From NCBI GenBank assembly GCA_029945665.1, contig JAQSCZ010000120.1:1-64000 (forward strand): a stretch of DNA of 64,000 bases, written 5' to 3'. Numbering within the stretch: the first letter of the stretch is position 1; each line of letters opens with the position of its first letter. Under the pieces are notes generated by a model. It ran no database searches, had not been told where the DNA came from, and saw only the letters and a program-made list of their open reading frames with translations. The DNA is from a bacterium (lineage in GTDB: Bacteria; Bacteroidota; Bacteroidia; NS11-12g; UBA955). Made by a program: the position numbers and the translations under genes. Below, one piece after another: positions 3,968-35,506 of the stretch.

Positions 3968-4099
3968 ATAACAGCCGTTTTGCGCTATTGCGAGAAAAAA
4001 TGCAAAATTCTACTTTATCTTTCGCAAGAAATTTGTAGTGTAACAGTAAATTTGTATTTCCAAAAATCGCCACCTTCGCTAAGCGCCCAAACCGTCAGC
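3968..4099. repeat. attC-like element 4 (copy B, complete palindrome)
   Basis: The left arm ATAACAGCCGTTTTGCGCTA and the right arm ending TAAGCGCCCAAACCGTCAGC are imperfect inverted copies, with GCGCT/AGCGC as the best-paired core. The segment 3985-4097 is the second copy of the direct repeat at 1808-1916. It begins 21 bases after higA. An internal TAAATTTG (4047-4054) could serve as a promoter box for whatever follows, here the broken mazE. Two copies of one element on either side of other modules fit recombination-site behaviour. Confidence 0.7.
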
Positions 4100-4178: not shown

Positions 4179-4423
4179 ATGGAAAATCCATCATCAAAAT
4201 CGGAAATTCTAATGGACTTAGATTAAGCAAGTCAATTCTCGAGAAATATAGTATCAATGAAAGAGTTGAAATTATTCTAGAAAAAGGAAAAATTATACTT
4301 AAACCAATCGAAATCCCGAGAAAGAATTGGGAAGCAGCCTTCCAAAAAATGCATTCGGAAAACGATGATCATTTGTTAGTAAACGATGTGTTTGACAATG
4401 AAACTTTTGTTGAGTGGAAATAA
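4179..4423 (+). pseudogene. mazE: MazE/AbrB-type antitoxin, frameshifted at its start
   Basis: From 4184 the frame reads KSIIKIGNSNGLRLSKSILE and continues through a SpoVT/AbrB-like swapped-hairpin domain to DDHLLVNDVFD and a terminal EWK, all typical of MazE antitoxins of Bacteroidota. That frame has no ATG, GTG or TTG before an upstream stop at 4157. The obvious start, ATG at 4179, is one base out of frame: one extra A in the run at 4183-4186 would restore M-E-K-S-I-I-K. So the gene is broken by a single-base deletion in a homopolymer, either truly or through a sequencing error. The next gene is the remnant of its toxin partner. Confidence 0.75.
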
Positions 4424-4737
4424 TTTAGTATTCGATAGTTTTGGTCGACCTTGACCCGACTTTAGGCAGCGAAATAAAGAAGACAAGACCGTGTGTCATT
4501 GTTTAACCTGACGAGATGAATAAGTATCTTAATACTATTGTCTTAGCTCCAATGACGACAAACATGAAAAAGTATCCTACCAGAGTAGCGGTTGAACATG
4601 ATGGAAAAAAAGGAATGATTGTTATCGACCAAATCCGAACAGTCGAGAAAATACAAATTCTAAAAGTATTAGGTAAACTAACAAAGTCCGAAATCAAGGC
4701 CTGTAAGGCCGTTCTTAAGGAAACATTTGTAGACTGA
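4424..4737 (+). pseudogene. mazF: MazF/PemK-type endoribonuclease toxin, disrupted
   Basis: In the frame through 4444 the sequence reads VDLDPTLGSEIKKTRPCVIV, then a TAA stop at 4504-4506, then PDEMNKYLNTIVLAPMTTN and on to the stop at 4737. This is the MazF fold, with the DPT.GSE..K.RP substrate loop and the C-terminal DQIRTV motif. The stop replaces what is normally Ser (TCA to TAA is one base). Upstream of 4444 the frame also breaks: TTCGATAGTTTTGG looks like an F-D-x-Y-L-V start that has lost two bases, and no in-frame start exists. A 73-residue product from ATG 4516 would lack the N-terminal catalytic part. Three independent lesions across mazEF argue for real decay. Confidence 0.75.
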
Positions 4738-4749
4738 ACAAACCACTAA

Positions 4750-4880
4750 TGCTATCAAAGGTTATAAAAAATGGCGGGTGAAGTACATGATTGAAAGCTT
4801 GTAACTCTCATCAGCATTGGTGTTGGTTAACAAAAGACACCCTTGCAATCTGCCACAATTTATTCTCTCAACCTTTAGCA
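4750..4880. repeat. attC-like imperfect palindrome 5
   Basis: The left arm at 4750-4774 (TGCTATCAAAGGTTATAAAAAATGGC, of which the GGTTATAAAAAATGGC part matters most) pairs with the right arm at 4852-4880, which begins GCCACAATTTATTC and ends CAACCTTTAGCA, with bulges. It starts 12 bases after the mazF remnant, in the same position as the other palindromes relative to their upstream genes. Beyond it, 4881-5023 is AT-rich with a promoter box but no gene. Confidence 0.5.
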
Positions 4881-5010
4881 ATTAAAAGTCGATTCATCCC
4901 CAAGAACAATGAGCATTAGCAAATCAAATCTTTTTTTCTCCAAAAAATGTTAAAAGGTAATTTTATAGTCATTTTTATTATATACTTCATTTGTTTTAAA
5001 AAAATAAGCC

Positions 5011-5018
5011 TAAGTTTG
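5011..5018 (+). promoter_or_regulatory. Promoter -7 box for the 5024 lipoprotein gene
   Basis: TAAGTTTG fits TAnnTTTG. It ends only 5 bases before the ATG at 5024, so the transcript should start at or within a base or two of the start codon (leaderless). Confidence 0.5.
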
Positions 5019-5023
5019 ATAGT

Positions 5024-5434
5024 ATGAGACAATTAATTTATATTTTAGTGCTAGGACTATTACTGAGTAGTTGTAAAAAGTCCACTCCTTCACCCATTTC
5101 GGTGAATGATGGCACCTATGTGGGGGAAGTTACAATGCTACCTTCAACCAACTATATTATGCTAGCTACTTTTGAAGTTAAGGCCATTTCTTATACAAAA
5201 ATGAAACTATTATTTAGAAATGGTAATATTGTAGCTGAGGCAGATTTAAATGGTTCAAATTTTACGATCATCCCCACCAACTTCAAAATCAATGATGGTC
5301 AAACGGAATACCAAGGTATAATTACAGGTGAAGGTTCATTTGGGAAAAACACAATAACTTTAAGATGGCATGAGGAGAGCTTAAGCGTTAAAAATTCTTA
5401 CAGCGAATACAGCGGCACTTTAACTAAATTTTAA
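5024..5434 (+). CDS. Small lipoprotein of unknown function
   Basis: 136 residues. The N-terminus MRQLIYILVLGLLLSSCKKS is a signal peptide with lipobox and Cys at position 17, so the mature protein is about 119 residues, lipid-anchored and probably periplasmic or surface-facing. The rest is rich in short beta strands (DGTYVGEV, ATFEVKA, NFTIIPTNF, GSFGKNTITLRW) ending in YSGTLTKF. That resembles the small beta-sandwich lipoproteins common in Bacteroidota, where a GTY..TVT start and an F/Y-SGT end recur. No catalytic motif is seen. It is the last + strand gene of the accessory block and converges with the gene at 5448. Confidence 0.7.
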   Translation: MRQLIYILVLGLLLSSCKKSTPSPISVNDGTYVGEVTMLPSTNYIMLATFEVKAISYTKMKLLFRNGNIVAEADLNGSNFTIIPTNFKINDGQTEYQGIITGEGSFGKNTITLRWHEESLSVKNSYSEYSGTLTKF

Positions 5435-28754: not shown

Positions 28755-29468
28755 ATGACAACAAAATTTATTAAAAACAACCTTCTAAGAACTTTGGTTC
28801 TAATTTCAATCTTCTCTAATTTTATCAATGTTAATGCGCAATGGTTTTTGCATAATACAGACAATACCTTTACTAGTCCATTTTCAATCTTCCAACCATC
28901 AAGACATTTTGGAGCAATAACTCTTGGTGATCCTTATGGTGGACTATTTATTGGAGGTAATGATGGAACTAAGCCTATATGTTGGCATACATATAGAGAT
29001 GTAAATAATGACTATAAATTTTTCAATACAAATAAAGCTATGAAAATAGAATTTGTACATTGGAGTCATCTTTTACAATTTAGTTTTTCTAGTAATTCAC
29101 CAACTGCTGGAGGAACTGCCAATTTTTCTACATTATTAACTTTGCAGGGGGATGGAATAAACGAGATGAAATTATGTGGCAATTTTTTTGCTAAAAGAGT
29201 GATAGTTAATCCACTAACAGGATGGTGCGACTACGTGTTTAAACCAAATTATGCGCTGAGACCCTTGAGTAGTTTGAAATTATTTATTGACTCGGCTCAT
29301 CATTTACCTGAAGTTCCAAACGAGAAAACAATTTTGGAAAGCGGAATCAATTTGGGGGACATGCAAACTATTCAAATGAAAAAGATAGAAGAATTGACCC
29401 TATATCTTCTTCAATTGGAAGAGAAGGTGGCAATTCTTGAAGAAAAGTTAGAAAAAATTGAAAAATAA
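28755..29468 (+). CDS. Exported protein with C-terminal coiled coil
   Basis: 237 residues. Signal peptide ending VNAQ, a beta-rich middle (GAITLGDPYGGLFIGGNDGT and MKIEFVHWSHLLQFSF), then a short region FAKRVIVNPLTGWCDYVFKP and the ending LPEVPNEKTILESGINLGDM followed by a coiled coil of about 35 residues (MKKIEELTLYLLQLEEKVAI). This C-terminal form is common in Bacteroidota tail-fibre-like or cell-wall-anchor-annotated proteins that resemble intramolecular chaperone tails without the catalytic dyad. First gene of a three-gene run (gaps of 6 and 7 bases). Confidence 0.75.
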   Translation: MTTKFIKNNLLRTLVLISIFSNFINVNAQWFLHNTDNTFTSPFSIFQPSRHFGAITLGDPYGGLFIGGNDGTKPICWHTYRDVNNDYKFFNTNKAMKIEFVHWSHLLQFSFSSNSPTAGGTANFSTLLTLQGDGINEMKLCGNFFAKRVIVNPLTGWCDYVFKPNYALRPLSSLKLFIDSAHHLPEVPNEKTILESGINLGDMQTIQMKKIEELTLYLLQLEEKVAILEEKLEKIEK

Positions 29469-29474
29469 TTATAT

Positions 29475-30275
29475 ATGCTAAACAAATTTTTAACATATAT
29501 AATTATACTATTCATTGCCGCTTCCTGTAAAAACCGTGATGGCAAAAATGATTGCCCCACAAATATTGACCTCAGTGCTAATTTTACAATTCAACAAGAT
29601 TTGGGTTTTACAGATTTGGATAAAATTGATAGGTATACTGAATTAAATAATGATACTGTTTATTTAATAAAATATCTTCATCCAGATAGTACCATTGAAT
29701 TTCAAGATATCAGGCTTAGATTTAGAACATCTGAGACAAATAAAAAGTGCGAGTGGACAATTAGTGGTGATCCTACAATTAGAAAAGGATATGATATAGA
29801 AGTTGACTTTTCAGGTGTATTTGGTACACTTCAAGCTACATGCACTAAAGAATTTGATCCATGGAAAGAATGTTTCCCTGATTTAACTGGATTTGATACA
29901 GTCAAGCGAAATTTTCATTTCGTTGTAAAAGAAAATCCTTCCTTTTTTGGTCAATATTTTGGATATAATGAGGATAATCCGAGTGATACCTTTACTATCG
30001 TAATTGGATTTTTTAATGAACAAGGACACCCTGATAATGATATTATTTCTATTGGCAACTTTCCTAAATCATTTAAATATTATCAAACTGGTTTACGCTT
30101 TAGTTACTCAGAATTTTACTTTAGAAATTTTTCAGATGGTAGCGCAAAATTTGCACACGGTTACACTAGTAAAAATGGGAAAGAAATAGTGATAGATTAT
30201 ATCCATAATAATATTAATAGTGACAATACAATTACATATGTTAATCGAAAATTTGTTGGTAAAAAAATAAAATAA
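29475..30275 (+). CDS. Lipoprotein, copy 1 of a duplicated gene
   Basis: 266 residues. The signal peptide ends in lipobox IAASC, then NRDGKNDCPTNIDLSANF. Residues from about 39 to the end are identical to the protein at 33636-34436. It is beta-rich (LRFRTSETNKKCEWTISGD, IEVDFSGVFGTLQATC, WKECFPDLTGFDTVKR) with four mature cysteines. It resembles no enzyme known to me. It is lipid-anchored and probably surface-exposed. It lies between the coiled-coil protein and the 807-residue T9SS protein and should be co-expressed with both. Confidence 0.8.
   Translation: MLNKFLTYIIILFIAASCKNRDGKNDCPTNIDLSANFTIQQDLGFTDLDKIDRYTELNNDTVYLIKYLHPDSTIEFQDIRLRFRTSETNKKCEWTISGDPTIRKGYDIEVDFSGVFGTLQATCTKEFDPWKECFPDLTGFDTVKRNFHFVVKENPSFFGQYFGYNEDNPSDTFTIVIGFFNEQGHPDNDIISIGNFPKSFKYYQTGLRFSYSEFYFRNFSDGSAKFAHGYTSKNGKEIVIDYIHNNINSDNTITYVNRKFVGKKIK
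29589..30273 (+). repeat. 685-bp exact direct repeat, copy 1
   Basis: By base-by-base reading this stretch equals 33750-34434 (offset 4161). Identity begins at ATTCAACAAGATTTGGG and ends on the first base of the stop codon (TAA here, TGA there). The 75-110 bases upstream are still similar but carry substitutions and an indel, so the exact part stands out. Confidence 0.9.
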
Positions 30276-30282
30276 AAATATT

Positions 30283-32706
30283 ATGAAAAAATTCTTATTC
30301 CTTTTAATTCTTGTGAATTTCGGAACATTGCATTCCCAACCATGCTCTACCAGGACATATTCACCAACTTGGGATTGGAGAGAAGATATTCCTTCTCCTC
30401 ATAAATATAACACTTATATAAGAAAAAATTTAGTGTCAAACCAAGTTGATTTACCCTCTCCATTTTACGATGGAACAAACAGTAATACCTTGTTATTTGC
30501 ATTAGAAAATATTAAAGATTATCAACCTGAAAATGGTTGGGTTGTAATTACTGCAGGTCTTGGTAAATGCTCAACACCAGGGAATTGTTCGTACGCAGAG
30601 GCAGTTGACCATCCTTATTTTATACTTTATAATAAGTATACCTCAGTACTTAGGATATTTGCTAATATAATAGATCCTCAACAAAATTATCAATCTGCCT
30701 TTATTTCTGTAAACTTTTATGACCCTCAAAATAATATTGGACATTATGAGTCAGCACTTTTAAATCAACACAAACCAATTTCGGAACCATTAGACAATTT
30801 TGTAAAATTAGTGGAAATGCAAGCTATAAATTTTTATAATAATACTGAATCATTTTGGTTATATGCTGATTTTCCTGTTGCATACGATCCATGTACATGC
30901 AAGGATATGCCAATAATTCAATTTAAAATTAGCTTAAAATCAGTTGGCACGATTTCGTTAAACCTTAATACTGTAACCACTCAATTAGTTGACAATAGTG
31001 GCTTTCTAAATCCAAGTTTGGATTTTAAATCTATTATTTCCTATGTTGCTGGAATTGGAGAAGCAGGAGCTAAATCATTAACCAATACACAAAATGCAAT
31101 TGATAATTTTGATAAGACTATATCTACAATGATTCCGAGTCTACACAGCAAAATGGATGCTGATAAAGCTGTTTTTCTGCAACTTTTAGCATTGGTACCC
31201 AAGGTTGGTGCAATGGTTGGAGTTTTCGATTATTTTGCATCTGGCGGTAAGGAAAATGATAAAGAAAATATAAAACCAATAGTCTATGAAACAAAAGGCG
31301 CATTAAGTGGCAATATTTCTTATACGTCTATTTTTTCAACTCCAACTATAACTTTACCCGGATCGAATAATAGTAATATTCAGAATAATACTTTAGTGCC
31401 AGAATATAACAACATATTGGGTGTATTCAACCTAATAGAATCACCTATTTTAGAAAGAATATCATATAAGTTATGTACAAATTGTGGTTCAGCGGGTAAT
31501 TTCTCAATACCTCCAATTATAACTGAATATAAAGTAAAAGAAGACCTAAAATATGTTCTAAACCCTGCATCAGATTTAGAGATAATAAATTTTGATGTTG
31601 CAGTTATTATGGAATATGAAGGTTCAACCCCTCCAGTAAATTTTGATCCGTATGGCATAGCATCGATGGGAAGACCAATTGAATTTGGACCACCATCATT
31701 TCCTATAACCCCATACGATCAACGAATAACAGAAACAACTGGCTTAGAAATTGAATATTGGGATCAAACATATCCTGCAATAGGCAAAAAGGTAAGATTA
31801 AGAACACCATACATACCTGTTGGCTGTTTTCCAAATCAATCCTTTGTATTAGAAGATGGGCAGCCCCCTAAATTTTATTGCAAAATTATACTTCGCTTAA
31901 GAAGGAAAGATTGGGCTGTCACAAATGCACAAGATTTGACATACGTATTCACATATCCATTTAAACAAGAAAATTCAACAACCTATAATAATGAGGAAGC
32001 AAATGTATATATACTTGGGCAGGATGTAAATAATCCAAAGTTTTTTGTTACTGGATTTAAGTCAGGTTTTAATATTAATAATCTTGCTTTCATGCCTGTT
32101 AATGGATTAACTTTACCAAAAGTAGTTCATATTTTTCCGTCATATTCATTTACACCTAATTCTGAAATTTTAGCTAAAGATGAAATATATATCCATAATG
32201 GAGTTATTGTGCCAAATAATCTTAATATAAAATTTAGAGCAAATAAGTTAATTGATGTAGAACCATTAGTTGACTTGGGGTATGGAACAGAATTATTAAT
32301 GGGATTAAGCGATTGTTATGATAGGACAGTCGCAGAACAAACCAATGTAGAGATTTCCAATTTTTGTCGTGACCAACTTAAATATAAAAATTTTATCGCT
32401 TCTGGACCAGTAATGGATCCAACTCTAAATATAAACAATACTGAATTCTTGCTTGAATTCAAGATTTTTCCAAATCCAAATTCATCAGATATTTTAAATT
32501 TGCAATTTGAATCGTTATCAGATTACAATGTTTTTGTCGCAGTAAGTGATATTTCAGGTTCAGTAATTAAAAAAATGGATTTAGGTATGCGTCACCAGGG
32601 ACCAAATAAAATTCAAATAAATACAGAAGATTTACCCCCTGGAGTTTATTTAATTGCTTTTGAAGCAAATGGTTATTTGGCTTATAAAAAATTTATTAAA
32701 CTTTAA
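30283..32706 (+). CDS. Large secreted surface protein with T9SS sorting domain
   Basis: 807 residues. Signal peptide ending TLHSQ, long beta-rich region without a recognised domain, a Gly/Ala-rich helical part near 250-330 (AGIGEAGAKSLTNTQNAI, QLLALVPKVGAMVGVFDY), then about 75 residues of type A T9SS sorting domain (FKIFPNPNSSDILNLQFE ... GVYLIAFEANGYLAYKKFIKL). It is exported and surface-attached or released. Co-transcribed with the lipoprotein 7 bases upstream, which may be its anchor or partner (inference). A strong terminator follows. Confidence 0.8.
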   Translation: MKKFLFLLILVNFGTLHSQPCSTRTYSPTWDWREDIPSPHKYNTYIRKNLVSNQVDLPSPFYDGTNSNTLLFALENIKDYQPENGWVVITAGLGKCSTPGNCSYAEAVDHPYFILYNKYTSVLRIFANIIDPQQNYQSAFISVNFYDPQNNIGHYESALLNQHKPISEPLDNFVKLVEMQAINFYNNTESFWLYADFPVAYDPCTCKDMPIIQFKISLKSVGTISLNLNTVTTQLVDNSGFLNPSLDFKSIISYVAGIGEAGAKSLTNTQNAIDNFDKTISTMIPSLHSKMDADKAVFLQLLALVPKVGAMVGVFDYFASGGKENDKENIKPIVYETKGALSGNISYTSIFSTPTITLPGSNNSNIQNNTLVPEYNNILGVFNLIESPILERISYKLCTNCGSAGNFSIPPIITEYKVKEDLKYVLNPASDLEIINFDVAVIMEYEGSTPPVNFDPYGIASMGRPIEFGPPSFPITPYDQRITETTGLEIEYWDQTYPAIGKKVRLRTPYIPVGCFPNQSFVLEDGQPPKFYCKIILRLRRKDWAVTNAQDLTYVFTYPFKQENSTTYNNEEANVYILGQDVNNPKFFVTGFKSGFNINNLAFMPVNGLTLPKVVHIFPSYSFTPNSEILAKDEIYIHNGVIVPNNLNIKFRANKLIDVEPLVDLGYGTELLMGLSDCYDRTVAEQTNVEISNFCRDQLKYKNFIASGPVMDPTLNINNTEFLLEFKIFPNPNSSDILNLQFESLSDYNVFVAVSDISGSVIKKMDLGMRHQGPNKIQINTEDLPPGVYLIAFEANGYLAYKKFIKL

Positions 32707-32707
32707 C

Positions 32708-32746
32708 AAAAAAGAAGCCCTCAAGATTTTTGAGGGCTTCTTTTTT
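32708..32746 (+). terminator. Rho-independent terminator of the surface-protein operon
   Basis: AAAAAAGAAGCCCTCAA and TTGAGGGCTTCTTTTTT are perfect inverted copies around a 4-5 base loop. It lies just after the stop at 32706. Confidence 0.92.
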
Positions 32747-32890
32747 AACAAACTCATACTTATTTAAAATAGTATTAGTATAAGTTATTAGAATTTAGAT
32801 TATGCTGAGTTTATAATTTTATCAAGTTAATTCAAAATATTTTTCTTTTATTTGTTAGCAATACCGTATTTATTGTCAAACCCCTCAATT

Positions 32891-33565
32891 ATGAAAGCAC
32901 CACTTTTTGTTTTTATCCTATTTTTTGGAAGCGCTGTATTTGCCCAACGCATTACCAATATCTTTGTGGATTTGGGCATGAACCACAGTGGTATTATTTA
33001 CACCAACAACATATTTACAGACATCGATAGAAAAGATTTCAAGACCAATTTTAATCCCAATTTTTCAGGCAGTGCAGGTATCGAACTCCAATTAAATAAG
33101 AAATTCAATTTAATCACTGGCCTTGGCTATAGAACGACTGGTACTCTGTTTAAACTGCCAGAAACTACAGTGCTACAACCCGATGGCACAGGAAGATTGA
33201 TTGATACTTACTATCATTTTAACCAGGTAACCCTTCCACTTTTATTAGGCTATAATTTTTTCGAAAAATTTAAATTAAAACCAATTTTAGGATTAGTAAA
33301 TAACTACAATGTTTCAATTAATGCAAAAACGGAGAATTATAAAGGCAGTGATATTGAAAAATACTATAATAAATACTCACTTAATGGCTTGGTAGGACTT
33401 ATGTTTTACAATGAACAATTATTCAATTCTAAATTAGGGCTTGGCATGAAAATAAGTTATGAAAAAAATCTGATGGACATTGATAATAATGACAATTCAA
33501 CAACCAATCAAAATATTGTTTCTGCAAGTGTCCTTTTTTCTTATAAACTTCTGAATAAAGATTAA
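32891..33565 (+). CDS. PorT-like outer-membrane beta-barrel protein
   Basis: About 224 residues from ATG 32891 (MKAPLFVFILFFGSAVFAQ, a signal peptide). The TTG at 32852 would add a 13-residue stretch before it. Strands follow the small-barrel pattern (GSAGIELQLNKKFNLITGLG, YHFNQVTLPLLLGYNF, YSLNGLVGLMFY, LGLGMKISYEKNL, SASVLFSYKL). Function unknown. Separated from the second lipoprotein copy by 70 bases. Confidence 0.78.
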   Translation: MKAPLFVFILFFGSAVFAQRITNIFVDLGMNHSGIIYTNNIFTDIDRKDFKTNFNPNFSGSAGIELQLNKKFNLITGLGYRTTGTLFKLPETTVLQPDGTGRLIDTYYHFNQVTLPLLLGYNFFEKFKLKPILGLVNNYNVSINAKTENYKGSDIEKYYNKYSLNGLVGLMFYNEQLFNSKLGLGMKISYEKNLMDIDNNDNSTTNQNIVSASVLFSYKLLNKD

Positions 33566-33635
33566 TTCATCTATGAGCCTAACATTGTTATTATATACAC
33601 TTACTTTATACTATAAAAATTTAGGATAACAAATA

Positions 33636-34436
33636 ATGCTTACTAAAAAATTTATATGTTATATAATCATTCTTTTAATTGCAATTTCTTGTAAAAAAAA
33701 GCAGAATGCTAATTGCCCTACAAATATTGACCTTAGTGCTAATTTCACTATTCAACAAGATTTGGGTTTTACAGATTTGGATAAAATTGATAGGTATACT
33801 GAATTAAATAATGATACTGTTTATTTAATAAAATATCTTCATCCAGATAGTACCATTGAATTTCAAGATATCAGGCTTAGATTTAGAACATCTGAGACAA
33901 ATAAAAAGTGCGAGTGGACAATTAGTGGTGATCCTACAATTAGAAAAGGATATGATATAGAAGTTGACTTTTCAGGTGTATTTGGTACACTTCAAGCTAC
34001 ATGCACTAAAGAATTTGATCCATGGAAAGAATGTTTCCCTGATTTAACTGGATTTGATACAGTCAAGCGAAATTTTCATTTCGTTGTAAAAGAAAATCCT
34101 TCCTTTTTTGGTCAATATTTTGGATATAATGAGGATAATCCGAGTGATACCTTTACTATCGTAATTGGATTTTTTAATGAACAAGGACACCCTGATAATG
34201 ATATTATTTCTATTGGCAACTTTCCTAAATCATTTAAATATTATCAAACTGGTTTACGCTTTAGTTACTCAGAATTTTACTTTAGAAATTTTTCAGATGG
34301 TAGCGCAAAATTTGCACACGGTTACACTAGTAAAAATGGGAAAGAAATAGTGATAGATTATATCCATAATAATATTAATAGTGACAATACAATTACATAT
34401 GTTAATCGAAAATTTGTTGGTAAAAAAATAAAATGA
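33636..34436 (+). CDS. Lipoprotein, copy 2 of a duplicated gene
   Basis: 266 residues. The signal peptide and lipobox (IAISC) differ from copy 1 (29475-30275) in sequence, but the rest of the protein is identical. Here the stop is TGA and overlaps the ATG of the next gene (ATGA), whereas in copy 1 it is TAA. The two copies have different neighbours: T9SS protein downstream of copy 1, WG-repeat barrel protein downstream of copy 2. Unknown function; a surface lipoprotein by signal. Confidence 0.8.
   Translation: MLTKKFICYIIILLIAISCKKKQNANCPTNIDLSANFTIQQDLGFTDLDKIDRYTELNNDTVYLIKYLHPDSTIEFQDIRLRFRTSETNKKCEWTISGDPTIRKGYDIEVDFSGVFGTLQATCTKEFDPWKECFPDLTGFDTVKRNFHFVVKENPSFFGQYFGYNEDNPSDTFTIVIGFFNEQGHPDNDIISIGNFPKSFKYYQTGLRFSYSEFYFRNFSDGSAKFAHGYTSKNGKEIVIDYIHNNINSDNTITYVNRKFVGKKIK
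33750..34434 (+). repeat. 685-bp exact direct repeat, copy 2
   Basis: Identical to 29589-30273 by reading. It covers most of the lipoprotein reading frame but not its signal peptide. Confidence 0.9.
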
Positions 34437-35506
34437 ATAAATACTTAGTTTTAGTGAGATTCCTTTTATCTCAACTATTGTTTACCTCTTTTTTTACAAA
34501 TAGCCATGCTCAAAATTGGATACCCCACACCTTTAGCGAATTTGATAACAAGGTGGGCTATATCGATTCTCTGACTGGCGAAACCAAAGTTTTTTGGCAT
34601 TTTGATAGTGCTAAGGCATTTAAATATGGTTTAGCAACCGCATGTTACCAAGGTAAATGGGGTTGTTTCAATACAAAAGGAGAGATCATTATACCATTTG
34701 CCTTTAGCTCGCTCGAATTAATTAGCGATAGCAGTGCCGAGGTAGATTACCATAATTGGGATAACGAAGTTTATTTTTACAAAGGGAAATACAAAGCAAT
34801 GCTTCTTACCCTAGATACTTCAATCAAATACAATTACACCTATACAAAACTGCAATTTATTTATGTTTCAAATAGTGCCTTTTCTTCCATTACATTTATA
34901 AATTCAGAAGCGAAACAAAAAGCTTTGCAAATACTAAAAGATGAAATAGTGTTGAATACCTTAAGAAAAAAAATATATCCTTCAGAAATGCGCGCATATA
35001 CGTTTTGGAATTCCTTTCAAGTCTCTACCTTCTCATTTAAAAGTTCAGGCAATGGAAATGGAAATGGCATCGACCTAAAAACTGGCGTTTACTATCGCCA
35101 AAAATTTGTACTTTCTGGTTTTAATATCGGGTATCAAAGATCAAAGATAATCAACGACACTTTTAAATATATAACCCATCAGATCCCATTCCTATGGTCG
35201 AATTATTTTTTTCTAAAAAAGACACCTTTGGGAAATGCCCTATTTACCAAACTAGATTTGGGATGTATTCTTGGCACCTTCGATTTTAAAGAAAATAAAA
35301 AAACTGGCAATGCCTATAAAAGTACCTCATCTCGCAATACGAGCGCACCAAATATTATAATGAATATTGGTTTCGGTTTTAAAATTGGTACAGATAATTC
35401 AAAATCAGGACTTATCTTCGAAACAGGATATAAATTTGCGCCTATTGTAATTGCCTATGGCACGTATATTAATCATGCCTATGTAAGTCTAGGTGTATTG
35501 CTTTAA
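34433..35506 (+). CDS. Exported WG-repeat/outer-membrane protein
   Basis: 357 residues. Signal peptide ending SHAQ, then a region with one WG-like repeat (FKYGLATACYQGKWGCFNTK followed by GEIIIPFAFSSLELIS). The C-terminal half is strand-rich (NGIDLKTGVYYRQKFVLSG, GFGFKIGTDNSKSGLIFETG, HAYVSLGVLL), suggesting a barrel domain. The start overlaps the stop of the lipoprotein by 4 bases, so translation is coupled. Unknown function. Confidence 0.7.
   Translation: MNKYLVLVRFLLSQLLFTSFFTNSHAQNWIPHTFSEFDNKVGYIDSLTGETKVFWHFDSAKAFKYGLATACYQGKWGCFNTKGEIIIPFAFSSLELISDSSAEVDYHNWDNEVYFYKGKYKAMLLTLDTSIKYNYTYTKLQFIYVSNSAFSSITFINSEAKQKALQILKDEIVLNTLRKKIYPSEMRAYTFWNSFQVSTFSFKSSGNGNGNGIDLKTGVYYRQKFVLSGFNIGYQRSKIINDTFKYITHQIPFLWSNYFFLKKTPLGNALFTKLDLGCILGTFDFKENKKTGNAYKSTSSRNTSAPNIIMNIGFGFKIGTDNSKSGLIFETGYKFAPIVIAYGTYINHAYVSLGVLL

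Follow-up and report, generated by a model that had tools for sequence, protein, structure and literature searches.

A pair of old lipoprotein paralogs in this Bacteroidota genome has probably undergone interlocus gene conversion, in which most of one copy was recently replaced with the sequence of the other, leaving two 266-residue proteins that are identical from codon 39 onwards but differ in their N-terminal ends. We infer the type of event from the pattern in the assembled sequence, namely a bounded stretch of complete identity that lies beside homologous sequence of much greater age. The process itself is well established, the gene family it affects in this genome is apparently undescribed, and the case provides a clean example of conversion between surface-protein paralogs, one whose age can be bounded.

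The identical tract and its ends

Both lipoprotein genes are intact, share one orientation at a spacing of 4,161 bp within the window (the whole 64,000-nucleotide stretch analyzed), and appear as open reading frames on the forward strand at 29475-30275 (copy 1) and 33636-34436 (copy 2). An exact sequence comparison recovered the 685-base identity proposed in the earlier note together with both of its end points, so that positions 29589-30273 of copy 1 equal positions 33750-34434 of copy 2 in 685 of 685 bases. The match cannot be extended leftward by a single base, and on the right it closes with the initial T of the stop codons, copy 1 ending in TAA and copy 2 in TGA; 3' of these codons the two flanks are unrelated. 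The right boundary of the tract thus coincides with the end of homology. The alignment of the two copies has 795 positions, of which the initial 114 account for all 30 nucleotide differences, and the corresponding 5' 114 bases of each coding sequence (29475-29588 and 33636-33749) give ~110 aligned positions, 30 of them differing, plus two compensating one-codon indels. When codon blocks were permuted in 2000 shuffles, the longest identical run was expected to be 133 and reached a maximum of 338, compared with the 684 observed.

The position of the left boundary bears on how the tract is described. Identity begins at codon 39, ~20 residues past the lipobox cysteine (Cys18 of copy 1, Cys19 of copy 2), and therefore does not match the boundary of the mature protein; the proposal that the exchange was limited to that part is roughly right in extent and misplaced at its start. 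Substitutions and indels do separate the signal peptides, as had been noted, and the divergence extends beyond them into the tether and the first strand region, ~20 mature residues included. Near the junction the copies differ by silent changes within a conserved peptide (NCPTNIDLSANFTIQQD), up to the junction itself. Neither end of the tract requires a functional boundary as its explanation.

Protein and DNA searches of the 3.79-Mb assembly (126 contigs, 98.8% complete) found no third copy or fragment, with the proviso that copies inside assembly gaps would escape, and contig scans with copy 2 as query matched no relative. An alignment of 32 sequences contained no stretch that was sufficiently conserved for such a scan.

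Old paralogs with a young identity

Synonymous and non-synonymous divergence, counted by the Nei-Gojobori method, separates the two parts of the genes. Codons 1-38 have a dS of ~1.07 and a dN of 0.23 between the copies, a rough estimate that comes from 37 codons with only ~22 synonymous sites, whereas codons 39-266 offer 132 synonymous sites and have a dS of 0 (95% upper bound ~0.02); the gap between the 5' end and the tract remains very large despite the imprecision of the former. For scale, mnmA of this genome has a dS of 1.02 to its congener G003 and 0.70 to the relative G015, and the neighboring outer-membrane barrel gene has a dS of 1.11 to G003. Judged on this scale, the split between the paralogs is about as old as the splits between species of the genus. 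Old paralogs that carry a young identity are best explained by gene conversion, so the suggestion of very recent conversion is supported and the accompanying suggestion of a very recent duplication is not.

The only close relative of these genes, found in G015, helps to interpret the tract. It is diverged from both copies along its whole length, so the tract is not merely a conserved domain, and the paralogs are closer to each other within the tract than either is to this gene (100% against ~70% nucleotide identity, a comparison in which the G015 gene sits at another locus and its orthology is uncertain). The same ~30% divergence through the tract led us to reject strong conservation as a cause of the identity. 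A diversity-generating retroelement was also discarded on inspection of the alignment, since the differences are neither A-specific nor linked to a template repeat.

The sequence of events that we propose would start from two paralogs of an outer-membrane lipoprotein that were present beforehand. A recent non-reciprocal exchange by homologous recombination would then have copied codons 39-266 of one onto the other, with the conversion tract extending on one side as far as the stop codon, where homology runs out, and stopping on the other within the diverged 5' region. The signal peptide and tether of each gene, and the sequence upstream of it, would thereby have stayed as they were; RecA may have taken part, and the cell may benefit.

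The same final picture would arise if the body had been duplicated recently and had happened to land behind a different 5' end. The two 5' ends are homologous to each other, with synonymous differences in the conserved peptide that reach the junction; the recipient locus must therefore have held a paralog beforehand, so that the event counts as a conversion and a chance joining is very improbable.

Artificial identity through assembly collapse, in which a short-read assembler merges scattered differences into one path and uses that path twice, is a more serious concern that we nonetheless consider unlikely. Both ends of the contig that contains the window, along with dozens of other contig ends, enter a shared multi-copy element by ~50-53 bp, and this suggests a short-read de Bruijn graph with k of ~55. 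In such a graph two close copies would give a simple loop (A-R-B-R-C), which the assembler could traverse even if no read spanned the repeat, and bulge collapsing is documented for metaSPAdes, consensus assemblers of this type being known to erase small differences (PMC8021871). Against this, the window contains no Ns, so 55-mers across all four junctions should, given how such assemblers behave, exist in the reads; merging is possible only for near-identical copies, and the diverged 5' ends stayed separate. The junctions should thus be sound, and a few interior differences may have been erased. Even a partly collapsed tract would leave high recent similarity next to old divergence, which weakens the word 'exact' rather than the word 'converted'.

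The contig-end element is entered at positions 1-51 of the window and at the far end of the contig (G000:C120:73150-73203). It has imperfect inverted ends (TATGACTGTTACGAAGG... and ...CTTTCGGATAGTTATG), and the two contig-end sequences have ~29 and 13 other matches, nearly all of them at contig ends, which suggests that the assembly is broken up by a mobile element with dozens of copies. Elsewhere in the window, positions 1818-1915 and 3996-4093 form a 98-nt direct repeat (96% identical) that contains CGCCACCTTCGCTAAGCGC.

The homogenized gene encodes a predicted surface lipoprotein, and conversion of surface genes has been proposed to underlie antigenic variation in Porphyromonas gingivalis, where allelic exchange has been proposed as well (PMC5266723). 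The earlier note had raised a phase- or antigenic-variation cassette. Such a system is highly improbable here: only two copies exist, both complete, and the protein and DNA search of the whole assembly, whose gap regions could hide further copies, found no silent or partial donor cassettes; the neighboring open reading frames include no recombinase; the copies are direct rather than inverted repeats; and the exchange erased variation in the body.

Gene neighborhoods and the predicted protein

Copy 1 belongs to a forward-strand operon in which it is the second of three genes. The first gene (28755-29468) encodes a secreted protein of 237 residues with a coiled-coil tail (...KIEELTLYLLQLEEKV...), which matches, at 4e-67, a profile of the gene that immediately precedes the lipoprotein gene in relatives (the window protein is among the seeds of that profile). 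The third (30283-32706) encodes an 807-residue type IX secretion system (T9SS) cargo protein with a C-terminal sorting domain (Por_Secre_tail, 7e-10, 39.5 bits compared with a Pfam cut-off of 27), and its family also lies 3' of the lipoprotein gene in relatives. A strong intrinsic terminator follows at 32708-32746 (a 17-pair hairpin plus a T tract, -24.6 kcal/mol, z -7.6). A scan for σ70 promoters was uninformative, and Bacteroidota promoters differ from that type.

The order of coil gene, one to three lipoprotein genes and T9SS cargo gene recurs in relatives (G036, G071, G088, G007, G073 and others). In the relatives' fetched loci the cargo gene is directly 3' of the lipoprotein in ~17 places and the coil gene is 5' in ~13, figures that were counted manually from profile matches and have independent support from pairwise matches; at other places, some of the matches to the T9SS profile are probably due to the shared sorting tail alone. 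Of 108 genomes in the order, 20 carry the lipoprotein family, and a phylum-wide sample of 395 genomes yielded it in 8.

Copy 2 has neither a coil gene nor a T9SS cargo gene as a partner. It lies between an outer-membrane β-barrel gene (32891-33565; OMP_b-brl_2, 5.7e-9) and a gene for a WG-repeat plus barrel protein (34433-35506; WG_beta_rep, 6e-8), the start of which overlaps the copy 2 stop codon (ATGA), all on the forward strand, bearing out the remark that the two copies have different partners. The barrel gene probably starts at the ATG near 32891 rather than at the TTG at 32852, as its G003 orthologue begins MKRPIFF. In G003 the barrel and WG-repeat genes adjoin with no lipoprotein gene between them, and mnmA directly adjoins mtgA in both G015 and G009, no gene separating them. 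Copy 2 is an additional paralog; a gain here and a loss in G003 both fit.

Two further observations concern the WG-repeat gene. Its orthologue in G003 (L067, G003:C62, ~4300-5347) contains two in-frame stops and looks like a pseudogene. In addition, window positions 33566-33620, 3' of the barrel gene (ATGAGCCTAACATTG...), align with the start of the G003 WG-repeat gene and could be what is left of the place where the gene began until copy 2 came between.

Both copies have the features of a lipoprotein, with a predicted N-terminal helix followed by ...AASC (...FIAASC in copy 1) or ...AISC, a lipobox cysteine that is invariant across 32 aligned relatives, and a presumed outer-membrane location. 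An AlphaFold model built from 32 relatives (mean pLDDT 84.0) contains the N-terminal helix, which is the signal peptide, and two β-rich regions, predicted to be an N-terminal PKD/Ig-like and a C-terminal β domain. Matches of copy 1 to Pfam were weak, and neither window copy matched a PKD profile, the best hit being PKD_4 in a relative at an E value of 0.2, so the protein is not assigned to that family; what looks PKD-like is its predicted β fold and the motif. A fold search of the PDB with models of pLDDT 66.6 and 84.0 gave no significant match (the best ones were meaningless), nor did a profile search of PDB sequences give any. From gene order, the lipoprotein, normally encoded upstream of a T9SS-exported surface protein, probably works with that protein. 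No description of the operon was found in the open-licence literature; lipoprotein and T9SS cargo form a conserved, apparently undescribed operon in which only the sorting tail has a domain name and whose paralogs seem to recombine repeatedly by segments.

Apparent segmental exchange within relatives' genomes, and known systems

Within-genome lipoprotein paralogs of four relatives (G017, G036, G067 and G071) have near-identical leaders and diverged bodies. Their leaders have a dS of 0.17-0.34 compared with body values mostly of ~1 or more (G017, G067, G071 and the G036 a/c pair), the G036 b/c pair being weaker (0.34 compared with 0.65-0.77). Exact runs of 56-101 bp occur in the G036 a/b and a/c pairs and in G017, G067 and G071, in genes that are otherwise 50-76% identical; the G017 copies lie at contig ends and make a weaker case. 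The effect is absent in several pairs (G088, and a single pair in each of G007, G067 and G071). In the window the pattern of near-identical leaders and diverged bodies is reversed, with a leader dS of ~1 and a body dS of 0, so this family seems to undergo recurrent segmental recombination among its copies, with differences in which part is homogenized. As the earlier note suggested, the body may have been homogenized here because it has to suit both surface systems.

The T9SS cargo genes of three operons in G007 (L112, G007:C20, 2788-9719; L121, G007:C23, 2977-5592) have nearly the same sorting-tail peptide (AGIYFVKITCGNTQKTEKLII), and these cargo tails may have been homogenized too. A more speculative proposal, which we regard as rather doubtful, is that the coil-lipoprotein-T9SS operon is an undescribed Bacteroidota surface module whose lipoprotein genes are repeatedly remodeled by segmental conversion, so that tandem arrays would carry shared leaders and diversifying bodies, and the body would here have been reset to a single sequence for two partner systems.

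Comparison with the relatives' operon shows the same gene order for copy 1 and both of its neighbors, whereas copy 2 is without those partners and it is the body rather than the leader that has been homogenized in this genome. As proposed for P. gingivalis, surface genes of a Bacteroidota member would have recombined, but the work on that oral species describes allele exchange between strains and here two loci of one genome are involved. Paralogs that are closer within a genome than orthologues between species over a bounded tract are a mark of interlocus gene conversion and concerted evolution in bacteria (PMC6053082, PMC8022953). In this respect the lipoprotein pair resembles tuf genes and rRNA operons, in which within-genome paralogs are closer than between-species orthologues over a bounded tract. 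Those genes serve information processing, whereas the pair encodes a surface lipoprotein that evolves fast, and it has a single recent tract, which does not imply long persistence.
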